Shown one piece after another: positions 15,174-38,692 of a DNA stretch of 64,000 nucleotides. The stretch is from contig NZ_LXYI01000023.1 in assembly GCF_001650875.1 (NCBI RefSeq), positions 62,001 to 126,000 on the forward strand, given 5' to 3'. The stretch comes from Sulfitobacter sp. EhC04. Lineage in GTDB: Bacteria > Pseudomonadota > Alphaproteobacteria > Rhodobacterales > Rhodobacteraceae. Position 1 is the stretch's first letter; the number at the start of each line of letters is the position of its first letter. The notes beneath the pieces are model-generated. The model was not told where the DNA came from. It saw only the letters and a program-made list of their open reading frames with translations, and ran no database searches. Made by a program: the position numbers and the translations under genes.

Positions 15174-15587
15174 TTATAAAGTTACTTGACAGCTAAGATA
15201 TAATACACCAATTTCCCAACGTGGGCCGACTCGGGGATATGCCCGGTCGGCCACAGATTATCTGCGTGCAATTTGCGCGGGGGATTGTCTTGGGAGGACT
15301 GGAATATGGACAAGCGTCGAAATCATGCGCGGGTGTTTGATCAGCGCGGCCCACTGTGCGTGGCGCATTGGCCCGACGTTGCTTCGAGCGACGCGTGCGC
15401 TTCACCTCGGACCCATTGTGCGTTCCAGGTTGTAGGGCAAGCCCGACATTCCCGTCGATAAGTCTGGTTCTTTGCAATGAACCCCCATTCCTCTCTCCGT
15501 TCCGCGAACAAATCGTCTGACGCCGATCTGCGGCGTGACCAAGAGCTCGAAAGTCGCGCATCAGGGCATCATTCAGGAGTTTCAAAA
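15174..15587 (+). promoter_or_regulatory. Long leader region of the Baeyer-Villiger operon
   Basis: About 410 bp without a certain gene. AT-rich arms ATTATA (15173-15178) and TATAAT (15199-15204) enclose a TTGACA box (15186-15191). This is a plausible promoter and MarR operator, though the TTGACA-to-TATAAT spacing (7 bp) is too short for them to act as one promoter. Downstream is a strong ribosome site (TGGGAGGA, 15291-15298) before a 51-codon reading frame, listed separately. The rest shows nothing recognisable. Confidence 0.4.
15306..15461 (+). CDS. Possible small protein or leader peptide (51 residues)
   Basis: An ATG at 15306 lies 7 bp after a near-perfect ribosome site (TGGGAGGA) and opens a basic, Cys/His-containing 51-residue frame starting MDKRRNHARVFDQRG. 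No homologue is recognised. It may be a leader peptide, a genuine small protein or a remnant of a deleted gene whose ribosome site survived. Confidence 0.3.
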   Translation: MDKRRNHARVFDQRGPLCVAHWPDVASSDACASPRTHCAFQVVGQARHSRR

Positions 15588-17495: not shown

Positions 17496-17580
17496 ACGCA
17501 AGCCTGTTGACCAAACTTCCCGCTCGGATCGGTCGGGTTCTTCGGGCGGTTGAACCACAGACAACAATACGGATCTTGAT

Positions 17581-18456: not shown

Positions 18457-18458
18457 AC

Positions 18459-20201: not shown

Positions 20202-20306
20202 ACAGATCATTCACGAGGCGGCGTAAACATCGTGTTGCACTGGTCTTTGCAGGTCAGTGCCGGGCCATTGCCCGCTGCCACCAGTCAATCATATTGGAGG
20301 ATTGTC

Positions 20307-21101: not shown

Positions 21102-21111
21102 GGAGAGCAGA

Positions 21112-23022: not shown

Positions 23023-23024
23023 GT

Positions 23025-23807
23025 ATGACTTACAAGCATGTAACACTTGAACAGATTGGGGATGTCCTGCTGATCGGGATCGACAGACCCGAAAAGGCCA
23101 ATGCGTTCAACCTCAGGCTCTTTCACGAGCTTTCGCTGGCTTATGCGGAGTTCGATAGCATGCCGTCAGTGCGCGTCGGTGTGCTGCATGGCGTGGGCAA
23201 ATATTTTGCCGTGGGCATGGATTTGGCTGCCGTCGCGCCGCATGTGCAGGCTGGCGGATCAATTGTGGCACCCGGTGGGATCAATCCATTTCAGGTCGAT
23301 GGTCAGCGCCTCTCCAAGCCTCTGGTCGCGGCGGTTCACGGGAAGTGCCTGACCCTTGGAATTGAATTGCTACTCGCCACGGATATCGTGGTTTGTTCTG
23401 AATCCACGACGTTCGCACAGTTGGAGCCAAGTCTTGGATTGTTTCCATTCGGGGGCGTGACCCTTCGCCTTCCGCGTGCGGCCGGTTGGGGCAACGCGAT
23501 GCGGTGGCTTTTGACCTCAGAACAATTCGACGCGCAAGAAGCACATCGCATCGGACTTGTGCAGGAAGTGGTGCCCGATGGAGACCATCTGACGCGTGGG
23601 CTGGCCATAGCGCAACGCATAGCCCGCCAATCGCCCTCGGCGATCAGGGCAGTGTTGGACAACGCCCGAAGCGCGCTGCGTGACGGTGAACAAGCCGCAG
23701 AGCAGCAAATGGTTCCACTGGCGGAAAAGACCTTCAACAGCCCGGATGGGAGGAAGGGCATCAACGCCTTTATGAGCCCATGGACGCCGGAATTCGATGA
23801 TGAATGA
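23025..23807 (+). CDS. Enoyl-CoA hydratase/isomerase (crotonase) family protein 2
   Basis: 260 residues with the crotonase oxyanion motifs GKYFAVGMDLA (about 62-72) and HGKCLTLGIELLLATD (about 105-120), and LGLFPFGGVTLRL further on. It is clearly different from the crotonase at 20307, so the pathway uses two separate steps of this family. The GG usually seen in the second oxyanion loop (GGGxEL) is replaced by TLGIEL, which may alter activity. It starts 2 bp after the ligase stop codon. Confidence 0.86.
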   Translation: MTYKHVTLEQIGDVLLIGIDRPEKANAFNLRLFHELSLAYAEFDSMPSVRVGVLHGVGKYFAVGMDLAAVAPHVQAGGSIVAPGGINPFQVDGQRLSKPLVAAVHGKCLTLGIELLLATDIVVCSESTTFAQLEPSLGLFPFGGVTLRLPRAAGWGNAMRWLLTSEQFDAQEAHRIGLVQEVVPDGDHLTRGLAIAQRIARQSPSAIRAVLDNARSALRDGEQAAEQQMVPLAEKTFNSPDGRKGINAFMSPWTPEFDDE

Positions 23808-23858
23808 GCGCCACGCAAAAGATCGGGAGTTGCGTTGCTGCCGGAGCAATATCCTTTG

Positions 23859-24689
23859 ATGTCAAGGAATGTGCAATCCTTTGCCGATGTGACGGCCGTT
23901 GTTGCAGAGGGCGACCTTCGTTTTAGGGCCGACCTTGATCCCAACTGGTCGACTGCGGGTGTGCCCAGTGGCGGGTATATTCTGGCCAGTTTGGTGCGGG
24001 CTGGTCTGATCGCGAGCGACAAGCCGCATGTCGTTTCAATGACCGCCCATTTTCTCAATAAACCACAGTTCGGCCACGCCGCGATTGAGGCAGTGCCGTT
24101 GAGGCGAAGCCGTTCGACGGATCAATTGCGCCTTACAATGACGCAGCAAGATATCCCCTGTGTCGAGACTACCATAGGGCTCAGCACTCTGAACCCCAAA
24201 GGGAGCGGCGAGGGACAATTCTGGGACGGCGGGAGCGAGGTCCGTCCGAATATTGCCTATGACGCGTGCGACTTGTTCGTCTCAACACCAGAGCGCTACC
24301 CCTCGCCGATGATGGGGCAATTGGGCCTGCGTCTGGATGAGCGGTCAATGGGTTTCATGACCGGATCACCAAGCGAGCGGGGCTGTCTGGACGGATGGCT
24401 TGAACTGGCGGGCGGAGAAAACTTCGATCCGACCTCGCTTGTCTTCGCCCTCGATGCCTTGCCGCCAGCCACATTCGATATTCAACCCACTGCCTGGGTG
24501 CCGACTTTGACATTGACCGCTTATGTGCGTGCCCTGCCAGCCCCTGGGCCGGTGCAAATTCGCTATCGGGCGGGCCTCGTTCAAGGCGGGCGCGTGGACC
24601 AATATTGCACCATTTGGGACAGCGAGGGCGCAATTGTCGCGCAGGGAACTCAGTTGGCCAGTGTGAGAATGCCATCAGGAAGTCATTGA
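23859..24689 (+). CDS. Acyl-CoA thioesterase, double-hotdog (TesB/TE-family) type
   Basis: 276 residues from ATG 23859; a TTG at 23835 directly after GGGAG is an alternative start. The pattern is the two-hotdog thioesterase: NWSTAGVPSGGYILASLVRAGL in the first half with the helix facing a beta sheet (SMTAHFLNKPQFG), and a second module with PTLTLTAYVRALPAPGPVQIRYR then DQYCTIWDSEGAIVAQGTQLA. It would release a free acid from CoA. It is the last enzyme gene before TRAP set 3. Confidence 0.78.
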   Translation: MSRNVQSFADVTAVVAEGDLRFRADLDPNWSTAGVPSGGYILASLVRAGLIASDKPHVVSMTAHFLNKPQFGHAAIEAVPLRRSRSTDQLRLTMTQQDIPCVETTIGLSTLNPKGSGEGQFWDGGSEVRPNIAYDACDLFVSTPERYPSPMMGQLGLRLDERSMGFMTGSPSERGCLDGWLELAGGENFDPTSLVFALDALPPATFDIQPTAWVPTLTLTAYVRALPAPGPVQIRYRAGLVQGGRVDQYCTIWDSEGAIVAQGTQLASVRMPSGSH

Positions 24690-24727
24690 AACTACAAAAC
24701 TATGTCCAATCAAACGAGGAGGAAAAT

Positions 24728-25762
24728 ATGAAAATTCGGATCAAGAAACTCTGCGCGCTGGCGCTGACGACATTAATGGCGGCAGGCGTTGCCAACGCGG
24801 AGACGCGCACGCTTGTGATAGCGTCCTGGGCCGCACCGACCCATGTGTTCAACCAGCGCATGTGGCCAGACTTCATCAAGAAACTCGAAGAGGTGTCGGA
24901 CGGAGAATTGACCGCCGAAGTCAAGCTCAACCTCGTGCCACCGCCCGCAATGGCAGATCTTGTTGCCGACGGTGCGGCTGACATCACCTTCATTTTTCAC
25001 GGCTATAATGCGGGCCGGTTCGTGACGACACAGCTTGTGGAACTGCCAGGCGTGGCAGGCGATGCCGAAGCGACTTCGGTTGCATACTGGCGGGTGTGGG
25101 ACAAATATCTGAAGGCCGCTGGCGAACAGGACGAGTTCAAAACCATCGGCATGTTCATGCATGGGGCTGCCCAAATTCATACGGCAGAGCCGATCCAAAG
25201 CCTGGCCGATTTGAATGGCATGAAGGTTCGTTCCCCCGGCGGCGTCGGTTCCATGATTGTCGATGAACTGGGCGGTATTGGCATCCAGGTGCCGGGCACA
25301 AAGGTCTATGAGACCCTGGCGGCCCGTGCGGCAGACGGTGTTGTGATGAACGTCGAGGCCCGCACCAGCTTTAATCTCGACGAAGTTGCGCCGGCTGTGT
25401 TCCTGTATCCCGGCGGTCTATATCGTGGTTCTTTTGCAGCTCTCATGAACAAGGAAACCTGGGACAGTTTTTCGCCGGAATTGCAGGCAAAACTCGACAA
25501 AGGGCTTTTCGGTGAGCCGATGTCGCGGTTGTTTGGCAAGCTTTGGGCCGAGGGCGACATGAGTGCCTTGGAAAACAGTCGTGCTGCTGGGCTGCCAATC
25601 ATCGAGGCAACGGACAAGGACGTCGAGCTTTTTAATCCCATCATCGAGAAAATCAGCGCCAACATCATTGATGTGGTGAATGCCAAGGGGATCGATGCCG
25701 TTGCTGCGCAGAAGGACTTTGCAGACATTACAGCGGAGATCATGAAAGAAACTTCCCGGTGA
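24728..25762 (+). CDS. dctP: TRAP transporter substrate-binding protein DctP (set 3)
   Basis: 344 residues, beginning after GAGGAGGAAAATATG. A Sec signal peptide (MKIRIKKLCALALTTLMAAG, cleavage after VANA near residue 23) leads into ASWAAPTHVFNQRMWPDF. The conserved ligand segments are LADLNGMKVRSPGGVGSM near 158 and ARAADGVVMNVEARTSF near 196. The opening differs from sets 1 and 2 and is of the type found with aromatic or hydrophobic acid transporters, but the ligand is not known. Confidence 0.92.
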   Translation: MKIRIKKLCALALTTLMAAGVANAETRTLVIASWAAPTHVFNQRMWPDFIKKLEEVSDGELTAEVKLNLVPPPAMADLVADGAADITFIFHGYNAGRFVTTQLVELPGVAGDAEATSVAYWRVWDKYLKAAGEQDEFKTIGMFMHGAAQIHTAEPIQSLADLNGMKVRSPGGVGSMIVDELGGIGIQVPGTKVYETLAARAADGVVMNVEARTSFNLDEVAPAVFLYPGGLYRGSFAALMNKETWDSFSPELQAKLDKGLFGEPMSRLFGKLWAEGDMSALENSRAAGLPIIEATDKDVELFNPIIEKISANIIDVVNAKGIDAVAAQKDFADITAEIMKETSR

Positions 25763-26289
25763 CCCGGATTGCAAAATTTGCCGCCGTCCGCCTGCCATTA
25801 TGGCTGGCGGCGGCTTCACTGTTCGCGATGATGCTGCTCACTTTCGTCGACGTTACGATGCGCAGTTTCGCCAACGCGCCGGTCGCGGGGGCGGCGGAAT
25901 TGACGGAAATTCTTCTCATCATGATTGTGTTCATAGCGCTGCCGATCACGTCGATGCAGGATCGTCACGTCACGGTTGATCTGTTCGATGCGATGATTCC
26001 GCCTTTGATAATTCGTTGGCGGGATGCCTTGATAAACGTCCTGTTCGGGGCCCTCCTTTTGGCCCCATCCTGGTCCTGTTGGAAGGGTGCGATAAGGACG
26101 CTGGGACATGGCGAGGTGACGCTCTACCTGCGAATTCCCGTCGGCTGGCTCCAGCTTCTGGCGACTGTCGGGCTGTTCATTTGCGCACTTTGCATGATCG
26201 TGCGCGGAATTTTGTTGCTTGCCCGTCCCGAACTGCTGGCCAAATCGCAAGACGAGGCATTGGATTCGATCCCTGGAGATGCCCTGTGA
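25759..26289 (+). CDS. dctQ: TRAP transporter small permease DctQ (set 3)
   Basis: 176 residues from a GTG start that overlaps the dctP stop codon (GTGA). Four hydrophobic segments are seen, with the family stretch PVAGAAELTEILLIM after the first and DRHVTVDLFD after the second. It overlaps dctM by four bases. Confidence 0.9.
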   Translation: MTRIAKFAAVRLPLWLAAASLFAMMLLTFVDVTMRSFANAPVAGAAELTEILLIMIVFIALPITSMQDRHVTVDLFDAMIPPLIIRWRDALINVLFGALLLAPSWSCWKGAIRTLGHGEVTLYLRIPVGWLQLLATVGLFICALCMIVRGILLLARPELLAKSQDEALDSIPGDAL

Positions 26290-27602
26290 TTCCTTCATTG
26301 GTTGGCTTTGCCGTCGTCCTTGCGTTCATTTTCCTGCGCGTTCCCATCGCATTGGCCATGGGCCTTGTCGGCGTCGTGGGCTTCGCATTTGAGACCAACA
26401 TGTCGGCCGCTCTTTCAATGTCCGCACGGATAGTGACAGAGTCGTCGCGCGACTATGGCCTGTCGGTGATCCCGCTCTTCGTTCTCATGGGCCTGTTCGT
26501 TAACGAATCCGGCATGAGCCGCGAAATTTATCGGGCGGCGCATGCATTTCTCGGGCATCTGCGCGGCGGCCTTGCGATGGCGACGATTGTCGCCTGCGGG
26601 GTGTTTGCCGCAATATCCGGTTCTTCGCTCGCCACTGTTGCGACCATGAGCCGGGTGACGATGCCGGAAATGCGCCGGTTCGGGTATGATGACGGACTGT
26701 CGACCGCTTCCATCGCCGCCGGTGGAACGCTGGGCATTCTCATCCCGCCTTCTGTCATCCTCGTCATGTACGGGCTTCTGACCCAGACCTCAATCATCGG
26801 GCTTTTTCTTGCCGGACTGCTGCCCGGACTCATCGGTATCGTATTTTACCTGGCGGCGGTCGCTTTCGTTGTGAAACGCAACCCCGATGCGGGTCCCTGT
26901 GGTGAGCGCAGCAGTTGGATGCAGCGTTGGGTCGCGTTGCGTGGCATAGGCGCGGTGCTTGCGCTTTTTGTCATGATGATCGGAGGTCTCTACGGTATCT
27001 TCAATTGGTATCCGCTCAACCTTACCTTCTCCCCAACCGAAGCAGCGGGCATGGGCGCGTCGGGCACCTTTCTGATTGCACTGCTGCGGCGCCGGTTGTC
27101 TTGGGCCAGTACGCTCAAGGCTCTGGTGGAAACAGCGATCACCACGGCCGGTTTGTTTGCGATCCTCATGGGGGCGTGGATATTTTCCAATTTTGTCAAC
27201 TATGCAGGATTGCCCGAAACCCTGGTTGCCATCGTCACGGAACACAATCTTCCGCCGCTGGCCGTCATAGGCATGATCCTTGTGATCTATCTCCTGTTGG
27301 GGTGCGTGTTCGAGAGCCTTTCGATGATTGTGCTGACCGTGCCGGTATTTTTTCCCGTAGTGGTGCAGTTGGGCATGGATCCGATCTGGTTTGGTATCGT
27401 TGTGGTGATCGTGACTGAAATCAGTCTCATCACGCCGCCCGTGGGGCTGAACGTCTTTATCATGAAGAGCGTACTGGATGACGTACCAACCTCGACAATC
27501 TTCAAGGGCGTGACGCCTTTCTGGATTGTGGACATCCTGCGTCTGACGCTGATCGTTCTCGTGCCACCTGTGGCTCTCGTTCTTCCCTGGATCGTGATGT
27601 GA
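26286..27602 (+). CDS. dctM: TRAP transporter large permease DctM (set 3)
   Basis: 438 residues from a GTG start overlapping the dctQ stop codon; a longer upstream open frame inside dctQ is ignored. Twelve hydrophobic segments, with ISGSSLATVATMSRVTMPEM near 113, GTLGILIPPSVILVMYG near 147 and EISLITPPVGLNVFIMK near 379. The SLATV form puts it in a different DctM subgroup from sets 1 and 2 and the same one as set 4. Last gene of the operon; a hairpin follows. Confidence 0.93.
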   Translation: MIPSLVGFAVVLAFIFLRVPIALAMGLVGVVGFAFETNMSAALSMSARIVTESSRDYGLSVIPLFVLMGLFVNESGMSREIYRAAHAFLGHLRGGLAMATIVACGVFAAISGSSLATVATMSRVTMPEMRRFGYDDGLSTASIAAGGTLGILIPPSVILVMYGLLTQTSIIGLFLAGLLPGLIGIVFYLAAVAFVVKRNPDAGPCGERSSWMQRWVALRGIGAVLALFVMMIGGLYGIFNWYPLNLTFSPTEAAGMGASGTFLIALLRRRLSWASTLKALVETAITTAGLFAILMGAWIFSNFVNYAGLPETLVAIVTEHNLPPLAVIGMILVIYLLLGCVFESLSMIVLTVPVFFPVVVQLGMDPIWFGIVVVIVTEISLITPPVGLNVFIMKSVLDDVPTSTIFKGVTPFWIVDILRLTLIVLVPPVALVLPWIVM

Positions 27603-27875: not shown

Positions 27876-28493
27876 TCAGCTAGACAGGACACCGATACAT
27901 GCCAATGACGAGATCGCGTCCTGAATATCCTCCAGCGTCGCGGCGTTGCTGCGATACCAAAGCGGCACCGAGTTCACCATGCCAAGAAGCGCAAGTGTGA
28001 GCAGGCGCGGGTCAATCTCAGCCCGGAATTCACCCGACCTGCGCCCGTCGCGCAGAACCGTCTCAAAGGCGAGTTCCAGTTTCTGCGACACCGCGCGGAC
28101 CCTGCCACGGGCTTCACCGGCCAGCCATTTCCTTTCGTTCAGAAACGTCATCATATAGTCGGCGCTGTCGCGCAGGGGCATACAATGTGCCGCGATCAGT
28201 TTCGTCAGCTTGTCCCGGTTACTGATCTTGGACTCCAGTATCCTGTTTGCGCGGTCCACGAAGCCTTCGGCCCCTCGTGCGCATACCAGTTCGAGCGCTT
28301 CTTCCTTGGAACGAAAATAGTAATAGAGGCTGCCCTGCTGAATGCTCAGCTCGTCGGCGATATCCTGGGTCGACGTACCATGATACCCGCGTCTGGCAAA
28401 GACGCGGGCAGCCGCGTCGAGAACTTCGGTCTCGCGTTTCTTGCTGGGGCGGACGCTGCCGCCTGAAGTCTTGCTTAGCTTTTCGTCGCCCAT
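27876..28493 (-). CDS. TetR-family transcriptional regulator
   Basis: 205 residues. The N-terminal TetR domain is at about 20-66 (VLDAAARVFARRGYHGTSTQ then DIADELSIQQGSLYYYF). The C-terminal region resembles TetR_C proteins that bind CoA thioesters or aromatic ligands. It is divergent from TRAP set 4, and a perfect 9+2+9 palindrome sits in the gap at 28585-28604. A close variant lies at 35299-35318 before the methyltransferase operon. This is good evidence that one regulator governs both halves. Confidence 0.9.
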   Translation of the reverse strand: MGDEKLSKTSGGSVRPSKKRETEVLDAAARVFARRGYHGTSTQDIADELSIQQGSLYYYFRSKEEALELVCARGAEGFVDRANRILESKISNRDKLTKLIAAHCMPLRDSADYMMTFLNERKWLAGEARGRVRAVSQKLELAFETVLRDGRRSGEFRAEIDPRLLTLALLGMVNSVPLWYRSNAATLEDIQDAISSLACIGVLSS

Positions 28494-28584: not shown

Positions 28585-28604
28585 ATTCTATTGAACAATA
28601 GAAT
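28585..28604. promoter_or_regulatory. TetR operator copy 1, before TRAP set 4
   Basis: ATTCTATTG (28585-28593) and CAATAGAAT (28596-28604) are perfect inverted arms with AA between. It is 93 bp before the dctP start codon and 91 bp from the TetR start. The motif is repeated at 35299-35318. Confidence 0.75.
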
Positions 28605-28697: not shown

Positions 28698-29693
28698 ATG
28701 AATTACCTTTTGAAGAAGTTACCTGCTTTCGCCGCTGGCGCCGTCGTCGCAGCCACCCTTTCGACTGGTGCAGTCGCCGAGGAACTTGCGCTCGCTGACT
28801 TCCTGTCGCCGCAACACCCGTACCAGACGGACGTTTACGGCGTCATGGCAGAAAAGGTCGCGACCGCGACCGACGGTGCTATGACGATCAAGATCTATCC
28901 GGGAGGAGAGCTTGGTGCCGGGCCGGTCGAGCAATATAACCGCGTTGTGGATGGCGTGGCCGATATCGCCTTTGCGCTGCCGGGGTATACGGCCTCAAAC
29001 TTCCCCAAGACCTTGCTGACGGAACTGCCGGGTGTCATCGATTCGGAAACCGGCACGACCAAGATCTGGGAAAATATCGACTATATTTCGGACGAGTATA
29101 GCCGGGTGAAGCTGCTCTCGATCTGGACTAATGGTGAAAATGTCCTCTATTCGAAAGAGCCAATCCGCTCGCTCGCCGACGTCCAGGGTCTGAAGATCCG
29201 CGTCCCTTCGAAAAACGCCGGGCTGATGGTCGAAGCATGGGGCGGCTCCCCTGTCTCTCTGCCGACGCCTGAAATCTACAACGCGTTCCAGACAGGGGTC
29301 GTTGACGCCGTCCTGATCGACACGACCGCGACCTATGCTTTCAACCTCGGCGAAGTCGCAAACTACGTCACTGCCGGCATGAACGGTACGATTTCGCCCT
29401 TCGTGCTCATCATGAACCGGGATCGTTACGAGTCTCTGAGTGAAGCGCAGCAATCGGCTCTGGATGAGATCGGGCGCGAAATCTCGGACATCGGGCTGGC
29501 GGTGCAACTTGCCGGTGTCGAGCGTGGGGCCCAGATGATCAAGGATGCCGAAGGCAAGGAGTGGATTCAACTGTCTGATGAAGCCGCTGCGGAATTCAAC
29601 AATGCCGCCGCATCGGTGGTCGAAGATGCAATCGCCGGGGCCGAGGCCGAGGGACTTCCCGCACGCGACTACATTGACGCCTTGAAGAAATAG
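28698..29693 (+). CDS. dctP: TRAP transporter substrate-binding protein DctP (set 4)
   Basis: 331 residues; the start at 28698 follows CTGGAGGAACAC. A Sec signal peptide (MNYLLKKLPAFAAGAVVAAT) ends at AVAEE near residue 28. Ligand segments LADVQGLKIRVPSKNAGLMV near 158 and FQTGVVDAVLIDTTATYAF near 197 are clear. It opens the transport part of the TetR unit and is 9 bp from dctQ. The cargo is probably an aromatic acid that the downstream IorAB, methyltransferase and CoA ligase act on. Confidence 0.92.
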   Translation: MNYLLKKLPAFAAGAVVAATLSTGAVAEELALADFLSPQHPYQTDVYGVMAEKVATATDGAMTIKIYPGGELGAGPVEQYNRVVDGVADIAFALPGYTASNFPKTLLTELPGVIDSETGTTKIWENIDYISDEYSRVKLLSIWTNGENVLYSKEPIRSLADVQGLKIRVPSKNAGLMVEAWGGSPVSLPTPEIYNAFQTGVVDAVLIDTTATYAFNLGEVANYVTAGMNGTISPFVLIMNRDRYESLSEAQQSALDEIGREISDIGLAVQLAGVERGAQMIKDAEGKEWIQLSDEAAAEFNNAAASVVEDAIAGAEAEGLPARDYIDALKK

Positions 29694-29702
29694 GGCACCG
29701 CA

Positions 29703-30209
29703 ATGTCCTCGAACATGAAAGTCCGGCCGCGCATAATCGGCCGGATTACCTTGTGGCTGGGCGTGCTCTCAGGCGTGTTCCTCGTCGCAATACTCGGCAT
29801 GGTCGCGGCGGGGGTCGTGTCCCGCTATGTCTTCAATGCCCCGATCTTTGGCGGTGCCGAGCTGGTCCAGTTCGCTTCGGTGGGGATGATCATGTGCGCT
29901 ATTCCCTATTGCGGTGCGTCCGACAGTCACATCCGGGTGGATATCTTCGACAGCGCCCTGAACAGGACCGGACGGATCATCGGCGAAGTGATCTATGTCG
30001 TCGCCTCCATTGCCGTCTTTTCCTTCCTCATCCGCAGGGCCTGGGACAAGATGCTGGATGCGCGTCAGTACGGCGATGCGACGAATATCCTGAATCTGCC
30101 GATTTGGCCCATGCAGGCCTTTATTGTCCTGGGGGCGGTCGCCTTTTCAGTGGTCTTGCTTGGCCAGCTGATCCACACGCTGAACGTGGGACGGGCGCAA
30201 GATGAGTGA
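29703..30209 (+). CDS. dctQ: TRAP transporter small permease DctQ (set 4)
   Basis: 168 residues with four hydrophobic segments and the stretch NAPIFGGAELVQFASVG after the first, then SDSHIRVDIFDS. An ATG at 29715 is a possible later start. It overlaps dctM by eight bases. Confidence 0.89.
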   Translation: MSSNMKVRPRIIGRITLWLGVLSGVFLVAILGMVAAGVVSRYVFNAPIFGGAELVQFASVGMIMCAIPYCGASDSHIRVDIFDSALNRTGRIIGEVIYVVASIAVFSFLIRRAWDKMLDARQYGDATNILNLPIWPMQAFIVLGAVAFSVVLLGQLIHTLNVGRAQDE

Positions 30210-31506
30210 CGTATGGATCGGCACGAGCGGTCTGGTCGGCATGTTCGTCCTGATGGCGTTGCGCGTTCCCGTGGGCATGGCATTGCTCATCGCGGGGTTC
30301 GTCGGCATCTGGATCCTGCGCGGAGAACGTTCGGCAACGGCCGTGCTCACGACCGAATTCTATACATCCGCCGCGTCCTATTCGCTCATCGTCATTCCGC
30401 TCTTTGTCCTGATGGGCAACATCTGCTCGGTCACCGGGTTCAGTCGCGGGCTATACGATGCCGCCTATGCCTGGGTCGGTCGGTTTCGCGGTGGGCTGGC
30501 CTCTGCTTCCGTCTTGGGCAGTGCCGCGTTCTCTGCCGTTAGCGGGTCTTCGGTTGCGACGGCAATCACGATCGGTCGAGTCGCAATCCCGGAGATGAAA
30601 CGGTTCAATTATTCAAGCGGTCTGGCGGCCGGTTCGGTCGCGGCCGGTGGGACGCTGGGCTACCTAATTCCGCCCTCCACAGGCTTTGTCGTCTACGGCA
30701 TCCTGACCGAAGAATCGATCGGACAACTGTTCATGGCCGGCATATTGCCGGGGCTTTTGCTCATGATGCTGTTTATCGTCACGATCATCATCGTGACGCG
30801 CGTGAACCCCAGCGCTGGTCCGAAGGGCGAAGTGGTCGGCTTGACCGAACGTCTTCGTGCGCTTTGGGGCGCGGTGCCGCTTGTGTCCGTTATCGTCATT
30901 TCAATCGGGGGTATCTATGCCGGTGCCTTCACCCCTGTCGAGGCCGCCGGGATCGGCGCAGGACTGGTGTTGATCTTCGCCGTTGCGATGCGCGCGCTCT
31001 CCTTGCGCCAGTTCGTCGAGGTTTGCCTGGAGACCGTGCGCACAACGGCGATGCTTTATCTCATCGTGATCGGGGCAAGCGTTCTGGGTATCTTCATGGC
31101 CTACAGCGGCGTGCCGGACAGCCTTGCGGTTGGACTGGGCTCGTTGGGTCTTGGCGCGATGGGCTCGCTCATCGTGATCCTGATCGCATACATCCTGCTC
31201 GGTACCTTCATGGATGCGCTCTCCATGCTCGTCATCACGCTGCCGATCACATATCCGATCATTCTCTCCTTCGGTTTCGACCCGATCTGGTTTGGTGTGA
31301 TCCTGGTCATCGTGATCGAAACCGGGATGATAACGCCGCCTGTCGGCATCAATGTCTTTGTGGTGAAGGGCATTGCACAGGACATTCCGCTTGCCACGAT
31401 CTTCAAGGGCGTGCTGCCGTTCTGGATCGCCATGATCATCTGCCTCGTGCTGATCATCGCTTTCCCGCAGATCGCGCTTTTCATCCCGCAATCCATGTAC
31501 CGCTAG
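30202..31506 (+). CDS. dctM: TRAP transporter large permease DctM (set 4)
   Basis: 434 residues, 12 hydrophobic segments, with VSGSSVATAITIGRVAIPEM near 113, GTLGYLIPPSTGFVVYG near 147 and ETGMITPPVGINVFVVK near 372. It is the same subgroup as set 3. It ends 26 bp before the IorA-like gene, which suggests one transcript. Confidence 0.93.
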   Translation: MSDVWIGTSGLVGMFVLMALRVPVGMALLIAGFVGIWILRGERSATAVLTTEFYTSAASYSLIVIPLFVLMGNICSVTGFSRGLYDAAYAWVGRFRGGLASASVLGSAAFSAVSGSSVATAITIGRVAIPEMKRFNYSSGLAAGSVAAGGTLGYLIPPSTGFVVYGILTEESIGQLFMAGILPGLLLMMLFIVTIIIVTRVNPSAGPKGEVVGLTERLRALWGAVPLVSVIVISIGGIYAGAFTPVEAAGIGAGLVLIFAVAMRALSLRQFVEVCLETVRTTAMLYLIVIGASVLGIFMAYSGVPDSLAVGLGSLGLGAMGSLIVILIAYILLGTFMDALSMLVITLPITYPIILSFGFDPIWFGVILVIVIETGMITPPVGINVFVVKGIAQDIPLATIFKGVLPFWIAMIICLVLIIAFPQIALFIPQSMYR

Positions 31507-31532
31507 GCGGATCCTGAAAGGAGGCCGGAGCA

Positions 31533-33689
31533 ATGGCCGAACGCTCATTCAAGAAGGAGGTAGAGCAACTTCGTCTCGGCGAGGGGGAAACTTTCTCAGG
31601 TGAAGGCATCCTTGCGATCACCAAGGCGCTGCTGGAATCAGGTGTCGCCTATGTCGGCGGGTATCAGGGCGCACCGATTTCGGCGTTGATGGATGTGCTC
31701 GCCGATGCAGAGGAACTGATGACAGATCTGGGCGTGGAGTTTCGTGCAAATGCGTCCGAAGCCGCCGCGACCGCGATGCTTGCAGCCTCGGTTCATTATC
31801 CATTGCGCGGAGCGGTCGCGTTCAAGTCTCCGGTTGGCATGAATGTCGCGTCCGACGCGCTTGCGAACCTCGCCTCCGGTGGCGTGACCGGCGGCGCAAT
31901 GATCATCATCGGCGAGGACTATGGCGAAGGATCTGCGATCATGCAGGAGAGGGTGCATGCATTCGCGATGAAGAGCCAGGTCTGGCTGCTCGATCCACGC
32001 CCGAATCTGCCGTCCATGACCAAGCTCGTGGGGCAAGGGTTCGAACTGTCGGAGGCAACGGAGACGCCTGTAATTTTCGAACTGCGTATTCGGGCCTGTC
32101 ATGTCCATGGCTCGTTCGAAGCGGGGAATAATCGACGCCCAAGTCCAACGGCGGCGCAGGCCAAGGCAAAGCCGCGTCGCGACCTGGCCAAGGTTGCGAT
32201 CCCGCCGGCCGCCTATCAACAGGAAAAAGACAAGATCGAAAGGCGGCTGCCCGCAGCACGGGCTTTCATCCAGGAATACGGTCTGAACGAGGTTTTCGGC
32301 CCGCGTGAAGCGCCCATTGGTCTGGTTTTGCAAGGCGGGATGTATAACCAGGTCCTGCGCGCCCTGCAGCATCTCGGCCTTGCCACTCTGGACGGAGAGA
32401 CCGATGTACCGCTTTACGTGTTGAATGTGACCTATCCTTTGGTGCCTGAAGAGGTGATCGACTTTGCGCGGGACAAGGATGCCGTCCTGGTGATCGAAGA
32501 AGGCCAGCCCAACCACATCGAAGAAGCGGTCACGACCCTGATCCACAAGGCAAGGCTTGCGACCCGGATCGAAGGCAAGGAGCACCTTCCGATGGCTGGG
32601 GAATATACTGGCTCCGTAATGAAGGAAGGTTTGACCGGATTTCTGCGGGTCCATGCTGCCGACATGCTGACCCCGGCTTTGAGGGCACCCAACGTGCCCG
32701 ACGATCCGCCGCCGATCCTTCGCCCCTTGGCAGTGCCTGCCCGTCCGCCGGGATTCTGCATCGGTTGTCCGGAGCGTCCGATCATGGCGGCCACGAAGCT
32801 GGTGCAGGAGGATTTGGGCGACATACAGATGTCCGGTGACATCGGTTGCCACCTGTTTGCGATCCTGCCGCCCTTCAATCTGGGCGGCACGACGATGGGA
32901 TACGGGCTGGGACCTGCCTCCAACGCCGCCTTCAGCGCCGCCGGGTCGGGACGCCGCACCCTTAGTTTCATGGGTGATGGCGGTTTCTGGCACAATGGGC
33001 TTTCCAGTTCGATCAGCAATGCGGTTTTCAACAAATCGGATGGGGTTATCGTGCTGGTGGACAACTACTATTCCGCAGCGACAGGCGGGCAGGACATTCT
33101 CTCGTCCCGCGCCGACAACCCGACAAAATCGACACAGCACTCCCTCGAAAAAGCAGTGCGCGGGGTTGGTGTCGAATGGGTGCGCCAGATCGACCGGACC
33201 TATGACGTTCCAAAGATGAAAGCGACGATTCACGAGGCTATGACCACGGATGTCGAAGGCCCCAAGGTCATCATCGCGTCGTCCGAATGCATGCTGAACC
33301 GCGAACGCCGCGAACGGCCCGAGAGAGCACGCAAACTGCGCAACGGTGAAAGCCTGACCGTGCCCCGCTTTGGCGTGGACGAGGCCGTCTGTACCGGCGA
33401 CCATGCTTGCATCCGCTTGTCCGGTTGCCCATCGCTCACGTTGAAGGAAACGAAAGATCCGTTGCGCGACGATCCGGTCGCACACATCGACCAGGACTGT
33501 GTCGGTTGCGGGACCTGCGGTGAAGTGGCGGATGCCGCGGTGCTGTGCCCCTCGTTCTACCGGGTCGATGTCGAACACAACCCGTCGGCGATCTCACGCT
33601 ACGCCCAAAACATCAGCCACCGGATCATCGCGGCACTTCAGCGCCGTCGATCGTCAGGCCGCGTCCAATTCGACACGGACGCTGCATGA
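31533..33689 (+). CDS. iorA: Indolepyruvate ferredoxin oxidoreductase alpha subunit-like protein
   Basis: 718 residues. Pyrimidine-binding domain at about 20-200 (GGYQGAPISALMD), a transketolase C-like domain at about 255-370, and a TPP-binding domain from about 405 with GCPERP and the TPP motif MGDGGFWHNG then VLVDNYYSAATGGQ (480-519). The C-terminal ferredoxin region has Cys620, 626 and 632 and CVGCGTCGEVADAAVLCP (656-673). This enzyme class turns an aryl-pyruvate (2-oxoacid) and CoA into an aryl-acetyl-CoA, CO2 and reduced carrier. The partner gene overlaps by four bases. In this setting the substrate is more likely a lignin-type arylpyruvate or arylglyoxylate than tryptophan-derived indolepyruvate. 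Confidence 0.9.
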   Translation: MAERSFKKEVEQLRLGEGETFSGEGILAITKALLESGVAYVGGYQGAPISALMDVLADAEELMTDLGVEFRANASEAAATAMLAASVHYPLRGAVAFKSPVGMNVASDALANLASGGVTGGAMIIIGEDYGEGSAIMQERVHAFAMKSQVWLLDPRPNLPSMTKLVGQGFELSEATETPVIFELRIRACHVHGSFEAGNNRRPSPTAAQAKAKPRRDLAKVAIPPAAYQQEKDKIERRLPAARAFIQEYGLNEVFGPREAPIGLVLQGGMYNQVLRALQHLGLATLDGETDVPLYVLNVTYPLVPEEVIDFARDKDAVLVIEEGQPNHIEEAVTTLIHKARLATRIEGKEHLPMAGEYTGSVMKEGLTGFLRVHAADMLTPALRAPNVPDDPPPILRPLAVPARPPGFCIGCPERPIMAATKLVQEDLGDIQMSGDIGCHLFAILPPFNLGGTTMGYGLGPASNAAFSAAGSGRRTLSFMGDGGFWHNGLSSSISNAVFNKSDGVIVLVDNYYSAATGGQDILSSRADNPTKSTQHSLEKAVRGVGVEWVRQIDRTYDVPKMKATIHEAMTTDVEGPKVIIASSECMLNRERRERPERARKLRNGESLTVPRFGVDEAVCTGDHACIRLSGCPSLTLKETKDPLRDDPVAHIDQDCVGCGTCGEVADAAVLCPSFYRVDVEHNPSAISRYAQNISHRIIAALQRRRSSGRVQFDTDAA

Positions 33690-35206
33690 CCCGGCTCGAT
33701 CGCATCGCGGCGCGGCGGGGCACGCCACAGGAATCCGGGCTGATCAGTCTGGCAATTCTCGCTGTGGGCGGTCAGGGCGGCGGGGTCCTGACGAAACTGA
33801 TCGTCGAACTGGCAGAGGCCAACGGATATTTTGCGCAAAGTACATATGTGCCGGGCGTCGCGCAGAGAACCGGTGCAACGCTCTACTATGTTGAGATTGC
33901 GCCAAGGCGGTCGGTGCCGCCCGTCTTTTCGCTCATGCCGAGTGAAGGGCACGTCGATGTTGTCATCGCCGCAGAACTGATGGAGGCCGGGCGCGCCGTT
34001 CAACGCGGAATCGTAACCTCGGACCGAACGCTGCTGCTTGCGTCGAACCACCGCATCCTCACCATCGGGGAAAAAGCGGTTCCGGGCGACGGGACGGTCG
34101 AACCTGATGAAGTACAATCCGCGCTCTTTGACGAGGCGAAGCGATCCATCGTCTTTGACATGCAGCGAATGGCAAGCGAGACCGGAAGCCACATTTCGAC
34201 AGTGATGTTCGGCGCGCTTGCCGGGTCCCAGGCGCTGCCATTCGACAGGGCGGCTTTCGAGCGTGTCATGCAGGCAAACGCCCGTAGCGATGCCGATCTG
34301 TTGGCATTCGCGCGGGCTTATGACCTCAAGCCGGTGTCGGGCCAGAAAGACGAAATACCCACGGGGCTTTCCGTGAAGCCTTCGGGCCTTGACGCATTTG
34401 AACATCGTCTGAGCGGGCTGCCGGATTCTGTGCGACCCATGGCTGAGGCGGGCCTGAAAAAGATCGTGGACTACCAGGACATCGCTTATGGCGAAGAATA
34501 TCTCGACGGTGTTGAAGATGCGGTTGAAAGGGGTCGCGATGGCACATTTGCGGAAGCCTTTGCGAAACATCTGGCCAACGCCATGTGCTACATGGACATT
34601 CTGCGCGTAGCGGACCTGAAGACGCGCGCATCGCGGTTCGCGCGCATCGAACAGGAGTTTACCAAGGGAGCCACGCCCACCTATAGGGTCACCGAGTTCC
34701 TGCATCCGCGCGGTGAGGAATTCATCGCGACCCTGCCGGCAGGTCTTGCTGAACGCATCGACCGTTCGGAGCGGGCCAAGAGGATGGTCGACCGAATCCT
34801 GAACAAGGGGCGCCGGATCACGAGCAACCGGTTAGGTGGCTTCCTTGCTCTCTATGCCATCGCAGGGATGTCTGTCTGGCGGCGAAAACTTTTCAGACAC
34901 AGGCAGGAAATGCGTTGGATTTCCCGATGGCGGGACCTTGCGTTCGACATCGTGGCAGAAGATCCGGCACTCGCCACCGAGGTCGTTCGCGCACAGCGGC
35001 TGATAAAAGGCTACGGTGACACGCACGCACGCGGAAGCGGGCACTACGACAAGGTCATCGAAGGCATCGGGCTGGTCCGGGGCCGCGCCGATGCGGCTGA
35101 TTGGGCGCGGAGATTCATTGCGGCGGCTCTTGCAGACGAGTCCGGTGCCGCGCTGGACGGGGCGTTGGCGACTGTTCGCGGTTTTGTTGATGTCGGGCCG
35201 CAGTGA
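33686..35206 (+). CDS. iorB: IorB-like oxidoreductase subunit with long C-terminal extension
   Basis: 506 residues, overlapping iorA (ATGA). The N-terminal 200 residues are the pyruvate oxidoreductase gamma domain (LAVGGQGGGVLTKLIVELA, then YVPGVAQRTGATLYYVEI). Classical IorB is about 200 residues, but this one continues for about 300 more with a mainly helical, basic region similar in kind to the DUF6537 extension of large proteobacterial enzymes. It therefore represents a large-enzyme architecture split between two genes. The start at 33686 is set by the overlap. Function is as for iorA. Confidence 0.86.
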   Translation: MTRLDRIAARRGTPQESGLISLAILAVGGQGGGVLTKLIVELAEANGYFAQSTYVPGVAQRTGATLYYVEIAPRRSVPPVFSLMPSEGHVDVVIAAELMEAGRAVQRGIVTSDRTLLLASNHRILTIGEKAVPGDGTVEPDEVQSALFDEAKRSIVFDMQRMASETGSHISTVMFGALAGSQALPFDRAAFERVMQANARSDADLLAFARAYDLKPVSGQKDEIPTGLSVKPSGLDAFEHRLSGLPDSVRPMAEAGLKKIVDYQDIAYGEEYLDGVEDAVERGRDGTFAEAFAKHLANAMCYMDILRVADLKTRASRFARIEQEFTKGATPTYRVTEFLHPRGEEFIATLPAGLAERIDRSERAKRMVDRILNKGRRITSNRLGGFLALYAIAGMSVWRRKLFRHRQEMRWISRWRDLAFDIVAEDPALATEVVRAQRLIKGYGDTHARGSGHYDKVIEGIGLVRGRADAADWARRFIAAALADESGAALDGALATVRGFVDVGPQ

Positions 35207-35298
35207 GCCGCTCGAATGCCATCGCTCGAAGGGTGCTTCCTTGCGCGGTGGCGGGGGCAGGTCGCTTTGGCGGGACAGCACACCTTGACACGATCAAA

Positions 35299-35318
35299 AA
35301 TCTATAGATCAATAGAAT
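35299..35318. promoter_or_regulatory. TetR operator copy 2, before the methyltransferase operon
   Basis: The right arm CAATAGAAT (35310-35318) is identical to that of the palindrome at 28596-28604, and the left arm AATCTATAG (35299-35307) matches it at 7 of 9 positions, again with a 2-bp spacer. A TTGACA box lies just upstream (35285-35290). The 170-bp gap also holds the promoter for 35377. Confidence 0.7.
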
Positions 35319-35376
35319 TTATTATTTCACCGGTCTGCATAACTGCAGTTCGGTTCCGAACTGGAAGGAAGACCTG

Positions 35377-36825
35377 ATGAACGCTGACAAAACGAGATCG
35401 TTGTCCGATCTGCTCGAAACCATCCCCAACGTGACGGATCACCTTTTCCGGAATGCGCCGAAGAATGCGCTGACGATCTTTACGCAGATGATGCCGGGCG
35501 ACGGCGTGCGCCCGGAATTCACGACCTGGCGCGACGAGCAGTGGGCCTGGCGCAATGCCATCGCCCTGCATGACCAGAGTTATCACATGAACTCGACCCA
35601 TGTGCGCGGCCCGGATGCGCTCGCATTCACGCAGTACCTCTCCGTCAATTCGTTCCGAAACTTCGAGATCGGCGCTGCAAAGCAACTCGTCTGTTGTTCG
35701 CCCGAAGGCTATCTGATCGGCGACTCGATCCTCTATCGCATGGGGGAAAACGACTATATGGTTGTGGGCAACCCGGCGACGAATGAATGGGTCGAATACA
35801 ACGCGGAAGTGCTCGACTTCGACGTAAAGACCGAAAGCGATCCGATGTGGACGCTCAACAAGGCCAAGAAGCGGGAGTTCTATCGGTTTCAGGTCGAGGG
35901 GCCGAAAGCCTGGGAGTTGCTGGAAGAACTGAACGGCGGCCCGCTTCCGGAGATCAAGTTCTTCAAATCGGCCGAGATAAACCTGGGCGAGCACAAGGCG
36001 CGTGGCATGCGCCACTCCATGGGTGGAATGCCAGGTCTCGAAATCTACGGACCCTGGGATGAATATCGGGCGGTCAAAAGCCTTTTTCGAAAGGCCGGGG
36101 CCAAATATGGTCTGCGTATGGTCGGGTCCATCGCCTATTTCACCACAGTGATCGAATCCGGGTGGTGGGCTGTTCCCGTTTCCGCAGTCTACACGGGTCA
36201 GGGAACCAAAGGCTACCGCGATTGGATGTCGGACAAGAACGCCTCGATGCGCATGTCGCTTGGCGGCAGTTTCTATTCCTCCGACATCGAAGATTATTAT
36301 GTGACCCCGTTCGATGTGAACTATGGGCACATCATCAAGTTCGACCACGACTTCATCGGCCGCGATGCGCTGGAGGCGATGGCAGGCAAGCCGCATCGCA
36401 AGAAAGTGACGCTGGTCTGGAATGCCGACGACGTGATGAAGGTACAGCAGAGCCAGCTCGAAGATACGGGCGAAACCCCGCCGCTTCCCATTTCGATCCC
36501 TCTCGCTGCGACCGCACGGATGCATTACGACAAGGTGACGGATTCCGACGACAACATGATCGGTATCGCCACCTATCCCGGCTATACTGCGAACGAGCGC
36601 GCGATGATGTCGCTCGCGACGATTGACGAGGCCTTTGCAGCGCCCGGTACAGAGGTGATCCTGCATTGGGGTGAAGATGGCGGCGGGTCCCGCAGCGCGG
36701 GCAATCTCGAACCGCATCGCCAGGTGAAGATTCGTGCAACCGTCGCGCCCAGCCCTATTTCCAAAGCTGCGCAAAGTTATCGGTCGGACATTGGTATCAA
36801 GCGCGGATCGCTCGACGATGTTTAG
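35377..36825 (+). CDS. Aminomethyltransferase-fold O-demethylase, LigM/DesA-like
   Basis: 482 residues, close to the 471-residue LigM. The GcvT/aminomethyltransferase fold is seen in FRFQVEGP-type and GLEIYGPWDEY segments and in a C-terminal beta barrel with LPISIPLAATARM and NEVILHW-type strands. LigM and DesA take the methyl group from vanillate, 3-O-methylgallate or syringate to tetrahydrofolate. No ligH/metF gene follows, so methyl-THF must enter core C1 metabolism. It starts 13 bp after GGAAGG and leads the second TetR-controlled operon. Dimethylsulfoniopropionate demethylase (DmdA) is in the same fold family and is the main alternative; length and context favour an aromatic ether. Confidence 0.78.
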   Translation: MNADKTRSLSDLLETIPNVTDHLFRNAPKNALTIFTQMMPGDGVRPEFTTWRDEQWAWRNAIALHDQSYHMNSTHVRGPDALAFTQYLSVNSFRNFEIGAAKQLVCCSPEGYLIGDSILYRMGENDYMVVGNPATNEWVEYNAEVLDFDVKTESDPMWTLNKAKKREFYRFQVEGPKAWELLEELNGGPLPEIKFFKSAEINLGEHKARGMRHSMGGMPGLEIYGPWDEYRAVKSLFRKAGAKYGLRMVGSIAYFTTVIESGWWAVPVSAVYTGQGTKGYRDWMSDKNASMRMSLGGSFYSSDIEDYYVTPFDVNYGHIIKFDHDFIGRDALEAMAGKPHRKKVTLVWNADDVMKVQQSQLEDTGETPPLPISIPLAATARMHYDKVTDSDDNMIGIATYPGYTANERAMMSLATIDEAFAAPGTEVILHWGEDGGGSRSAGNLEPHRQVKIRATVAPSPISKAAQSYRSDIGIKRGSLDDV

Positions 36826-36848
36826 CTGCATGAAGGGAAGGGCAGGAA

Positions 36849-38267
36849 ATGACGCATCCATCAAACCGCGCCGAGGTGACCCGTCGCCGTTGGAAAGATG
36901 TCTTGGAAACCCATGCCGACGTGCGGAACGCGCCTGTCTCGGACCGCTTCTGGTCCGAGCAGGACACCTGGTCCCGTGATCACATCCGGGCGGTCCAGGA
37001 CCAGAAAGTCGCTTCTGTCGCGCCGTTTCTGTACGAGAACAGTGCCTTCTATCGCGCGCGGTTCGACAGATTGGGGATGGCGCCTACTGACCTTGCATCA
37101 GTTGATGATCTGATTGCAAAATGGCCCGTCATCACCAAGCAGGAGATGATGGATGACGTCACGGCGAACCCGCCTTACGGAACATACACGGCCTGTGGCG
37201 ATGCAGAGTGGGCGGATCGAGGATGGATGCTCTTTTCGTCTTCAGGCACAACGGGCGTGCCACGCGTGTTCCGCTACACTCATTTTGACCGGCAATTCTG
37301 GGAACAGGCAAATGCCCGCGCCCTGCACTCCGGTGGCCTGCGCAAGGGCGACAGCGCCCTGCCGTTGGTGGGGTTCGGCCCGCATGTCTTTGCATGGGGC
37401 GCACAGTATGCTCTGGCCGCGATGGGTCTTCCGGTCATCCCCGGAGGTGGCCTGGACAGCAAGGCCCGCGTGGACCTGATCCAACGGTTCAATCCCAGCA
37501 CGCTCGTCTGCACGCCATCCTATGCGCTCTATATTGCCAGCGTCATGGAGGACTTGGGCATTGATCCCGCTGCATCCTCGGTCAAGACCCTTGTCATCGG
37601 AGGCGAGGCGGCTTCGGGCGTCGAAGGGACCGGAGACAGGCTCAAGAACCTTTGGGGTGCAAAGATTGCCGAATTCTACGGTTGCACGGAGGTATCACCG
37701 CATTGTGGCGGATATTCCTGCGCTGAGAGCCAGTCTGGCGGCGTGCCGTTCATGCATCTCATGGAAGATATCCAGATCTGGGAAACGGTCGATGCCGAAA
37801 CACTTGTGCCCTTGAACGAAGGCGAACGCGGGTTGACGGTCTGCACCAACCTGTGCTCGGAAACCTCACCGCATCTTCGCTTTCTCGTCGGCGACTACAC
37901 GATGCTCGACAGCACCCCGTGTCCTTGCGGGCGAAATCACCTCAAGGCGATGGGCTGCATGACCGGCCGGGCAGACGACTTGATCAATCTTCGCGGCATC
38001 AAATTCTTCCCGGTTCAAATCGAAGAGGCTGTTCGATCTGTGCCTGGCACGGGCGACGAGTTTCAAATCCGCCTGTCACGGACTGACAGTGGCCTCGACA
38101 CGCTGACAGTTGTTGTCGAACACACCGATCCGGGCGCTGCTGCTCAGGTGGCCGCTGCCGTAAGATCGCGATGCGAGGTTCGGTGTGACGTCGATGTTGT
38201 TGCCCCCAAAACCTTGCCGAAATCCGAGATGAAGGCCAAACGGGTGTTCGACGAAAGGAATATGTGA
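36849..38267 (+). CDS. Phenylacetate-CoA ligase (PaaK)-family AMP-forming ligase
   Basis: 472 residues. The ATP motif FSSSGTTGVPRVFRYT is at about 129-144, FYGCTEVSPHCGG near 276, GDYTMLD near 350, and the PaaK-type tail GRADDLINLRGIKFFPVQIE near 377, with the last conserved lysine in PKSEMKAKR. A CPCG motif (about 358) may bind metal. The gene begins 23 bp after the methyltransferase. It activates an aromatic acid to its CoA ester. Since IorAB would already make an aryl-acetyl-CoA, the ligase may activate the other part or a different entry compound of the same pathway. Confidence 0.87.
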   Translation: MTHPSNRAEVTRRRWKDVLETHADVRNAPVSDRFWSEQDTWSRDHIRAVQDQKVASVAPFLYENSAFYRARFDRLGMAPTDLASVDDLIAKWPVITKQEMMDDVTANPPYGTYTACGDAEWADRGWMLFSSSGTTGVPRVFRYTHFDRQFWEQANARALHSGGLRKGDSALPLVGFGPHVFAWGAQYALAAMGLPVIPGGGLDSKARVDLIQRFNPSTLVCTPSYALYIASVMEDLGIDPAASSVKTLVIGGEAASGVEGTGDRLKNLWGAKIAEFYGCTEVSPHCGGYSCAESQSGGVPFMHLMEDIQIWETVDAETLVPLNEGERGLTVCTNLCSETSPHLRFLVGDYTMLDSTPCPCGRNHLKAMGCMTGRADDLINLRGIKFFPVQIEEAVRSVPGTGDEFQIRLSRTDSGLDTLTVVVEHTDPGAAAQVAAAVRSRCEVRCDVDVVAPKTLPKSEMKAKRVFDERNM

Positions 38268-38692
38268 TGCTGACCAATAAACTTACGCGCCGTGTCGAAT
38301 GGGGTGATTGCGACCCTGCCGGTATCGTTTTCAATCCCCAGTTTTTCCGATGGTTCGATCACGGCACGGCAATGCTTTACGAAGCTGCGGGTTGGCCAAA
38401 GCAGGAGATGCTGGCGCTGTTCGGCGCCGCCGGCTGCCCCATCGTTGAGACGCGCGCGGTGTTCAAGGCACCCTGCCGGTATGGCGAAGATGTCGAAATC
38501 ACGACCGAGATCGTGGACCTAAAAGACCGGAGTTTTGACGTCAAACATACACTGACGAAGAATGGTCATGTCTGTGTCGAAGGTTTCGAGACCCGCGTCT
38601 GGACCGTCAAAGACCCTGAGAAGGGTTTGAAATCGGCAAAGATACCCGACGCGCTGGCCGCGCGATTTCGCGATAGTCACAGTCCTGCCTAG
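38264..38692 (+). CDS. 4-hydroxybenzoyl-CoA thioesterase (4HBT) family protein
   Basis: 142 residues, hotdog fold. The N-terminus has the 4HBT signature VEWGDCDPAGIVFNPQFFRW with the catalytic Asp17. It overlaps the ligase by four bases. It would release free aromatic acid from CoA, which suggests that the CoA ester is a transient needed for one step, such as side-chain removal, in this operon. Confidence 0.9.
   Translation: MMLTNKLTRRVEWGDCDPAGIVFNPQFFRWFDHGTAMLYEAAGWPKQEMLALFGAAGCPIVETRAVFKAPCRYGEDVEITTEIVDLKDRSFDVKHTLTKNGHVCVEGFETRVWTVKDPEKGLKSAKIPDALAARFRDSHSPA

Follow-up and report, generated by a model that had tools for sequence, protein, structure and literature searches.

A predicted TetR regulon in Sulfitobacter sp. 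EhC04 that joins a divergent LigM/DesA-family demethylase with IorAB, a CoA ligase and a thioesterase

Tetrahydrofolate (THF)-dependent removal of aryl O-methyl groups is known from LigM and DesA, the vanillate and syringate O-demethylases of Sphingobium SYK-6, where LigM is coupled to methylenetetrahydrofolate reductase (MTHFR). Few THF-dependent aryl demethylases have been characterised so far; a 2022 paper counted four such genes as reported before its own (PMC9404685). Here, we describe a gene cluster at positions 28698 to 38692 of a 64,000-nucleotide stretch of Sulfitobacter sp. EhC04 DNA (contig NZ_LXYI01000023.1, positions 62,001 to 126,000; the window), in which a predicted demethylase of this family lies beside a CoA ligase, a thioesterase, an IorAB-like oxidoreductase and a tripartite ATP-independent periplasmic (TRAP) transporter. 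The other parts have described counterparts as well. IorA and IorB subunits homologous to those of the window are encoded in the iac/iad indole-3-acetate loci, the ligase belongs to the same adenylating family as the phenylacetate-CoA ligase PaaK, and the thioesterase belongs to the same 4HBT family as 4-hydroxybenzoyl-CoA thioesterase. TarP aromatic-acid receptors are among the top structural matches of the TRAP receptor, and the hpa homoprotocatechuate meta-cleavage pathway, the predicted downstream route, is encoded in the same genome. While the parts belong to known families, the literature searched, which leaves out most subscription journals and was covered mainly through listings and the openings of abstracts, showed neither their combination nor the residue-changed demethylase clade nor the two-operator TetR regulon. 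No system described there unites a THF-dependent demethylase with IorAB, a CoA ligase and an aryl-CoA thioesterase, nor did a THF-dependent demethylase for homovanillate come up.

Gene families, an operator motif, a demethylase clade with its residue changes, co-occurrences across genomes and hpa-type genes were all read from sequence, and with somewhat less than even confidence we propose that the cluster is a module under TetR control that handles homovanillate-type compounds, meaning methoxylated aromatic acids whose side chain has two or three carbons. The substrate, enzyme activities, direction and order of steps are those that we infer for this module. The TRAP system would import a methoxylated aromatic acid, the PaaK-like ligase would convert an arylacetate to the aryl-acetyl-CoA, and IorAB would reach a thioester of that kind by oxidatively decarboxylating an arylpyruvate. 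The demethylase would transfer the O-methyl group to THF, probably on the CoA thioester. Hydrolysis of the thioester by the 4HBT protein would follow, yielding an arylacetate with a phenol or catechol ring, for instance homoprotocatechuate, for the hpa meta-cleavage pathway that another part of the genome encodes. If right, this would be a dedicated route for methoxylated arylacetates in marine Rhodobacterales and a one-carbon source by way of methyl-THF, and the regulon would come with an operator already defined.

Cluster layout and a shared operator

The initial annotation had placed eight genes between positions 28698 and 38692; all eight were found there, and the families named for them were borne out. 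The genes and the regulatory elements around them are as follows.

27876-28493, minus strand: TetR regulator (TetR_N and TetR_C_24 domains; best NCBIfam match FadR, below threshold)
28587-28602, strand not applicable: operator 1, TCTATTGAACAATAGA, core of the 20-bp palindrome ATTCTATTGAACAATAGAAT
28698-29693, plus strand: DctP, TRAP solute receptor (nearest structures are aromatic-acid receptors of the TarP type)
29703-30209, plus strand: DctQ, TRAP small permease subunit
30202-31506, plus strand: DctM, TRAP large permease subunit
31533-33689, plus strand: IorA-like subunit of a 2-oxoacid:ferredoxin oxidoreductase (TPP domain)
33686-35206, plus strand: IorB-like subunit (POR and DUF6537 domains; PRK08312 subfamily above cut-off)
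35301-35316, strand not applicable: operator 2, TCTATAGATCAATAGA, between iorB and the demethylase gene
35377-36825, plus strand: predicted THF-dependent demethylase, distinct clade of the LigM/DesA family
36849-38267, plus strand: predicted PaaK-type AMP-forming aryl-CoA ligase
38264-38692, plus strand: predicted 4HBT-type aryl-CoA thioesterase with a GDCDPAG motif

The iorB gene probably starts at 33686, in an ATGA overlap with iorA; its longest open reading frame starts at 33545. The tetR gene is divergent from dctP, a 170-base gap separates iorB from the demethylase gene, and the ligase and thioesterase genes overlap by 4 bases. This spacing suggests two transcription units, DctP-DctQ-DctM-IorA-IorB followed by demethylase-ligase-thioesterase.

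The tetR-dctP intergenic region holds a 20-base palindrome, of which the gap between iorB and the demethylase gene contains a near copy. The core shared by the two, TCTATWGNNCWATAGA, has two exact matches in the window (28587-28602 and 35301-35316), one ahead of each unit, and with up to two mismatches it was found at three places in the window, versus 0.06 expected by chance. Across the whole 4.85 Mb genome, the core with at most one mismatch occurs solely at the two cluster places, and a backward control motif gave no match at the same threshold. The co-regulation proposed in the initial annotation is thus backed by an exact operator motif before both units and by the lack of a third place in the genome at one mismatch. 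Among the 213 loci scanned (numbered L001, the window's own, and upward), the exact motif was found only in L001, L017 and L019, and in none that lacks a TetR ortholog. In both L017 and L019, the motif lies between tetR and the demethylase gene, and the TetR ortholog adjoins the demethylase (58% and 50% identity, respectively); these two are the only other loci with an orthologous TetR among the 16 that carry a demethylase of the window's clade (see below). The operator places in the genome, together with those in L017 and L019, argue that one TetR governs both units. The cluster thus has the look of a single TetR regulon made up of two transcription units (TRAP-IorA-IorB; demethylase-ligase-thioesterase), with TetR presumably binding at both operators.

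A separate demethylase clade and its partners

The window demethylase is homologous to THF-dependent aryl demethylases over most of its length, with about 39-46% identity to LigM/DesA-type proteins over the best segment, and is a member of the broad LigM/DesA family. It scored 394 bits to 5tl4 versus 59 bits to the best aminomethyltransferase; a glycine-cleavage T-protein (GcvT; TIGR00528, 69 versus a cut-off of 236 bits) and DmdA (31 versus 410 bits) were rejected. Within the family, the protein fell below the curated cut-offs of both the LigM equivalog (NF047885; 456.7 versus 580 bits) and the DesA equivalog (NF047633; 495.7 versus 800 bits). For the three members of its clade that were scored, the LigM model gave 425-461 bits and the DesA model 470-517 bits, with L017 and L019 passing neither cut-off, whereas all eight relatives scored from outside the clade were above the LigM cut-off, L024 being above the DesA cut-off too.

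The clade was delimited by a scan of 84,980 species genomes that was seeded by six short peptide patterns and is not exhaustive. The scan found 61 loci with demethylase relatives, 14 of which form a close group at 66-87% identity, with the next relatives at 46% or less. These 14, one further genome (G125) and the window make up the 16 genomes of the clade; in genome counts, G098 and G187 were taken as the same records as L014 and L011. In a tree obtained by a short search with long branches flagged, the clade lies on one side of a branch with an SH-aLRT support of 100 and has a long stem (0.92); LigM and the relatives above the LigM or DesA cut-off fall outside it, and L076 joins the clade at 87. 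Maritimibacter harenae carries a clade member (L021) plus a separate LigM-type gene (L044). The clade members of Maritimibacter share 86-87% identity with the window demethylase.

The residue numbers His60, Tyr247, Arg122 and Tyr31 and the residue roles follow the LigM structure published in 2017. Among 74 aligned relatives, comprising 18 clade rows (16 genomes, with two rows being repeat copies of a genome already counted) and 56 others, His60 and Tyr247 are present in 18/18 clade rows. At the position of Arg122, all 18 have Asn, whereas 52 of the 56 other rows have Arg (all except L076, L080, L081 and L085). Where most rows outside the clade show a YVYPV-type segment, the clade has TQMMPGDG, with the last G being A in L019; the loss of Tyr31 is read from this segment of the other relatives, since the LigM piece used starts after Tyr31. 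The description of the protein as LigM/DesA-like in the initial annotation is therefore right at family level only, because the clade is without LigM's Arg122 and Tyr31 segment. Given these changes and the scores below both cut-offs, a plain vanillate or syringate demethylase was rejected.

With two LigM positions changed, the enzyme might act on a group other than an aryl methyl ether, such as a methylenedioxy ring or an N-methyl group. One study describes BrdA and SesA of the wider family as opening the methylenedioxy rings of berberine and sesamin (PMC5547118). The same study gives BrdA as 26.7% identical to LigM/DesA, well under the value for the window protein, and we regard such a substrate as highly improbable.

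The surroundings of the demethylase were compared over stretches of up to 10 kb on each side, shorter in places (about 0.8 kb upstream in L019). Downstream of the demethylase, 16/16 loci have a 4HBT gene in the same orientation, and 14/16 have a PaaK-like ligase gene between the two, so that the window-type demethylase, unlike LigM and DesA, is paired with a thioesterase and usually with a CoA ligase too. A MarR match was found nearby in 13 of the 16 loci (in three of these, only 40-42% identical) and a LivK-type receptor in nine, and G125 has an orthologous TRAP ahead of the demethylase (DctP, 63%; DctM, 65%). These counts suggest that transporter and regulator vary while demethylase and thioesterase stay. 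The notion that all eight genes form a conserved unit failed, as IorAB adjoins the demethylase in only 2/16 loci and the constant pair is demethylase and 4HBT. In L018, an MTHFR gene (8894-9877) lies directly upstream of the demethylase (1/16 loci), as expected if methyl-THF is the product and reminiscent of the coupling in SYK-6. A demethylase relative at E 1e-100 was found in 0/14 other genomes of the window's genus, indicating that the cluster is accessory. In G125, an integrase-core fragment (L148, 6648-7130) adjoins the 4HBT gene, hinting at mobility of the cluster.

The ligase has 4r1l as its best solved match, but it falls far below the PaaK equivalog cut-off (TIGR02155; 223.4 versus 646.3 bits). 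The window 4HBT protein scored 78 bits to 5wh9, higher than the 57 bits to the enzyme of 1bvq. The GDCDPAG motif is present in 15 of the 16 4HBT proteins of the clade loci, with L019 reading GECDPAG and retaining the second Asp; we take the Asp of this motif to be catalytic.

A CoA ligase and a thioesterase around the demethylase are easiest explained by a thioester substrate, and demethylation on the thioester is favoured on two grounds, the thioesterase kept at every clade locus and the loss of the Arg122-Tyr31 pair of LigM. In its full form, this reading would make the enzyme the first THF-dependent aryl O-demethylase to act on a CoA thioester: IorAB and the ligase would converge on methoxyaryl-acetyl-CoA, which would be demethylated without Arg122-Tyr31, and the thioesterase would release homoprotocatechuate. 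We hold this full form to be doubtful, though a real possibility; if it is true, a single TetR would turn methoxylated arylpyruvates and arylacetates into a ring-cleavage substrate.

Alternatively, the demethylase could act on the free imported acid as LigM does, with ligase and thioesterase forming a separate or proof-reading branch, or making a thioester that TetR senses. FadR, which the window TetR best resembles, albeit below the cut-off, senses acyl-CoA. LigM-type genes in L044 and L046 adjoin TRAP receptors 42% identical (local alignment) to that of the window, and these operons have no ligase or 4HBT match in the stretches scanned. LigM acts on the free acid (PMC12585457), and another paper has LigM, DesA and the dicamba demethylase Dmt all acting on free acids (PMC9404685). 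The thioesterase kept in every clade locus and the lost Arg122 and Tyr31 segment speak against a free-acid substrate, which we consider rather unlikely for the clade.

IorAB contexts

The window IorA scored below the IorA equivalog (TIGR03336; 289.5 versus 650.9 bits), and the IorB was above the cut-off of the IorB family PRK08312 (575.3 versus 348 bits). IorA matches at E 1e-100 were found in 50/292 genomes of the order and in 10 of the 14 other demethylase-bearing genomes searched, a set from which the genome of L013 was left out. Among 65 IorA loci besides the window, 33 have MarR and cyclase matches nearby, and 24 of these have an amine oxidase as well. One study lists iorAB among the genes of auxin-degradation loci (PMC9613470), and the 33 are probably loci of that kind. 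The other IorA copy of the window genome (L128, on contig C89) has MarR, cyclase and amine oxidase neighbours; none of the three was found among the window neighbours scanned. An indole-acetate locus was rejected for the window, since many other IorAB of the order sit in a different context. In contrast to the iac/iad proteins, the window IorAB belongs to a different subclade, and its genes sit within a regulon that also covers a TRAP and the demethylase.

A second context, LysR with TRAP-IorA-IorB, was seen in L134, L140, L209, L210 and L020, all from demethylase-bearing genomes, and in L020 this set directly adjoins the demethylase trio. In a joined IorA-IorB tree (62 rows, window included), the window grouped with these five and with L206 and L207, likewise from demethylase-bearing genomes (SH-like support, 0.99). 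The joined tree left out L165, L184, L186 and L192; separate trees restored them, except for L186 in the IorB tree as it has no IorB, and the group held, with supports of 92 for IorA (66 rows) and 91 for IorB (65 rows), both below the threshold of 95. The eight members of this subclade were seen only in demethylase-bearing genomes, and within the unbiased 292-genome sample its three members (G000, the window genome, G098 and G187) are among the four genomes with an ortholog-level demethylase (naive Fisher, 1e-6). This link is good evidence but not independent, since G098 and G187 come from a single genus and long branches lead to the window rows.

These data bear on whether IorAB has nothing to do with demethylation and is instead a widespread enzyme of the indolepyruvate type that came into the operon as a bystander. 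Its frequency in the order, the many loci with MarR, cyclase and amine oxidase and the two adjacent cases among 16 would fit such an origin; the confinement of the subclade to demethylase-bearing genomes, its representation in the order sample and the position of the window IorAB downstream of operator 1 argue otherwise, and we judge a bystander unlikely. A third context, IorAB with a 4HBT gene, was found in L147 and L187-L191 and suits a thioesterase acting after IorAB. These six loci form a distinct IorAB clade, some also with a TRAP, and have no demethylase match in the stretches scanned.

Ring cleavage, transport and substrate class

As the initial annotation had noted, no ring-cleavage gene was seen inside 28698-38692; a gene for HpaD, the homoprotocatechuate 2,3-dioxygenase, was located on another contig of the same genome. 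Contig C10 encodes HpaR, HpaE, HpaD and HpaH above cut-off, with HpaG-like and HpaF-like genes below, and these genes are without the TetR operator (20-kb stretch, and whole genome at one mismatch). Ring-cleavage genes were counted in the window genome and the 14 other demethylase-bearing genomes, with the 292 genomes of the order as baseline. HpaD was above cut-off in 14/15 versus 81/292 (naive Fisher, 3e-7). In the 15 genomes alone, pcaH was above cut-off in 4 and paaA in 12. The hmgA gene was above cut-off in 14/15 (a fragment in the last) and says little on a shared product, because it is also found in 219/292. Homogentisate, with hmgA common across the order, and protocatechuate cleaved by PcaGH, with pcaH in so few of the 15, were both rejected as the shared product. 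The co-occurrence with HpaD points to homoprotocatechuate and thereby to homovanillate-type substrates in most carriers, G125 excepted.

The proposal of an aromatic-acid TRAP receptor is supported by the predicted structure of the window DctP (pLDDT, 87.4; alignment of 13 rows only). Its eleven best structural matches lie at Z 36.8-39.4, and ten of them are titled aromatic-acid receptors or have coumarate, cinnamate, caffeate, ferulate or 4-hydroxyphenylacetate bound. In this model, DctP resembles aromatic-acid receptors in fold, which is not a shared ligand, and its identity to the TarP receptors is 29% or less in the structural alignments. The model of the IorAB-linked receptor of L020 (pLDDT, 79.8) is closest to Bpro_4736 structures (4mni; Z 32.7, 36% identity), the ligand of which is presumably benzoylformate.

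These receptors also suit another side-chain chemistry, in which cinnamates, arylpropionates or arylglyoxylates would be converted by way of CoA thioesters to an aroyl-CoA and the thioesterase would free a benzoate such as vanillate, which would then be demethylated. The likeness of DctP to coumarate and ferulate receptors, that of the L020 receptor to Bpro_4736, the kinship of the 4HBT protein to 4-hydroxybenzoyl-CoA thioesterase and a thiolase gene between demethylase and ligase in 3/16 loci all favour it. However, pcaH, the one protocatechuate route searched, was above cut-off in few of the carriers, and no enoyl-CoA hydratase was a common neighbour in the clusters scanned, of which not every neighbour was covered. 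We consider this chemistry quite unlikely.

Several observations weigh against the homovanillate-type module that we propose. Making a CoA thioester only to hydrolyse it costs ATP. The gene set is uneven across carriers: a PaaK-like gene is missing next to the demethylase-4HBT pair of L017 and L019, IorAB is rarely adjacent, 4 of the 14 other demethylase-bearing genomes have no IorA match at E 1e-100, and the window IorA and IorB are on long branches. The operator is absent from the remaining demethylase loci, where other regulators lie nearby, and the thiolase in L011, L012 and L021 points to other side-chain chemistry there. The HpaD link is 3/4 inside the 292-genome sample (P, 0.066) and modest by lineage (5/6 lineages by our own grouping; P, ~0.03). 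Finally, G125 has demethylase, ligase, thioesterase and orthologous TRAP, with no IorA match, no HpaD above cut-off, and pcaH.

Beside the hpa cluster on contig C10 lies a gene for a 1,143-residue reductive dehalogenase fusion (L224, 9979-13410), with a dehalogenase domain scoring 202 bits (cut-off, 160) and NADH oxidoreductase-like parts, which may dehalogenate hydroxyphenylacetates. The window genome also has two full-length hmgA copies above cut-off (contigs C10 and C84), where most listed genomes have one match. Upstream of the cluster, positions 15477-27602 of the window hold a same-strand block with an FMO/BVMO-like monooxygenase, alpha/beta hydrolases (one above the PcaD cut-off), a DHDPS-family protein, two enoyl-CoA hydratases, an acyl-CoA ligase, a thioesterase and a further TRAP; this block may encode another pathway for degrading acids.

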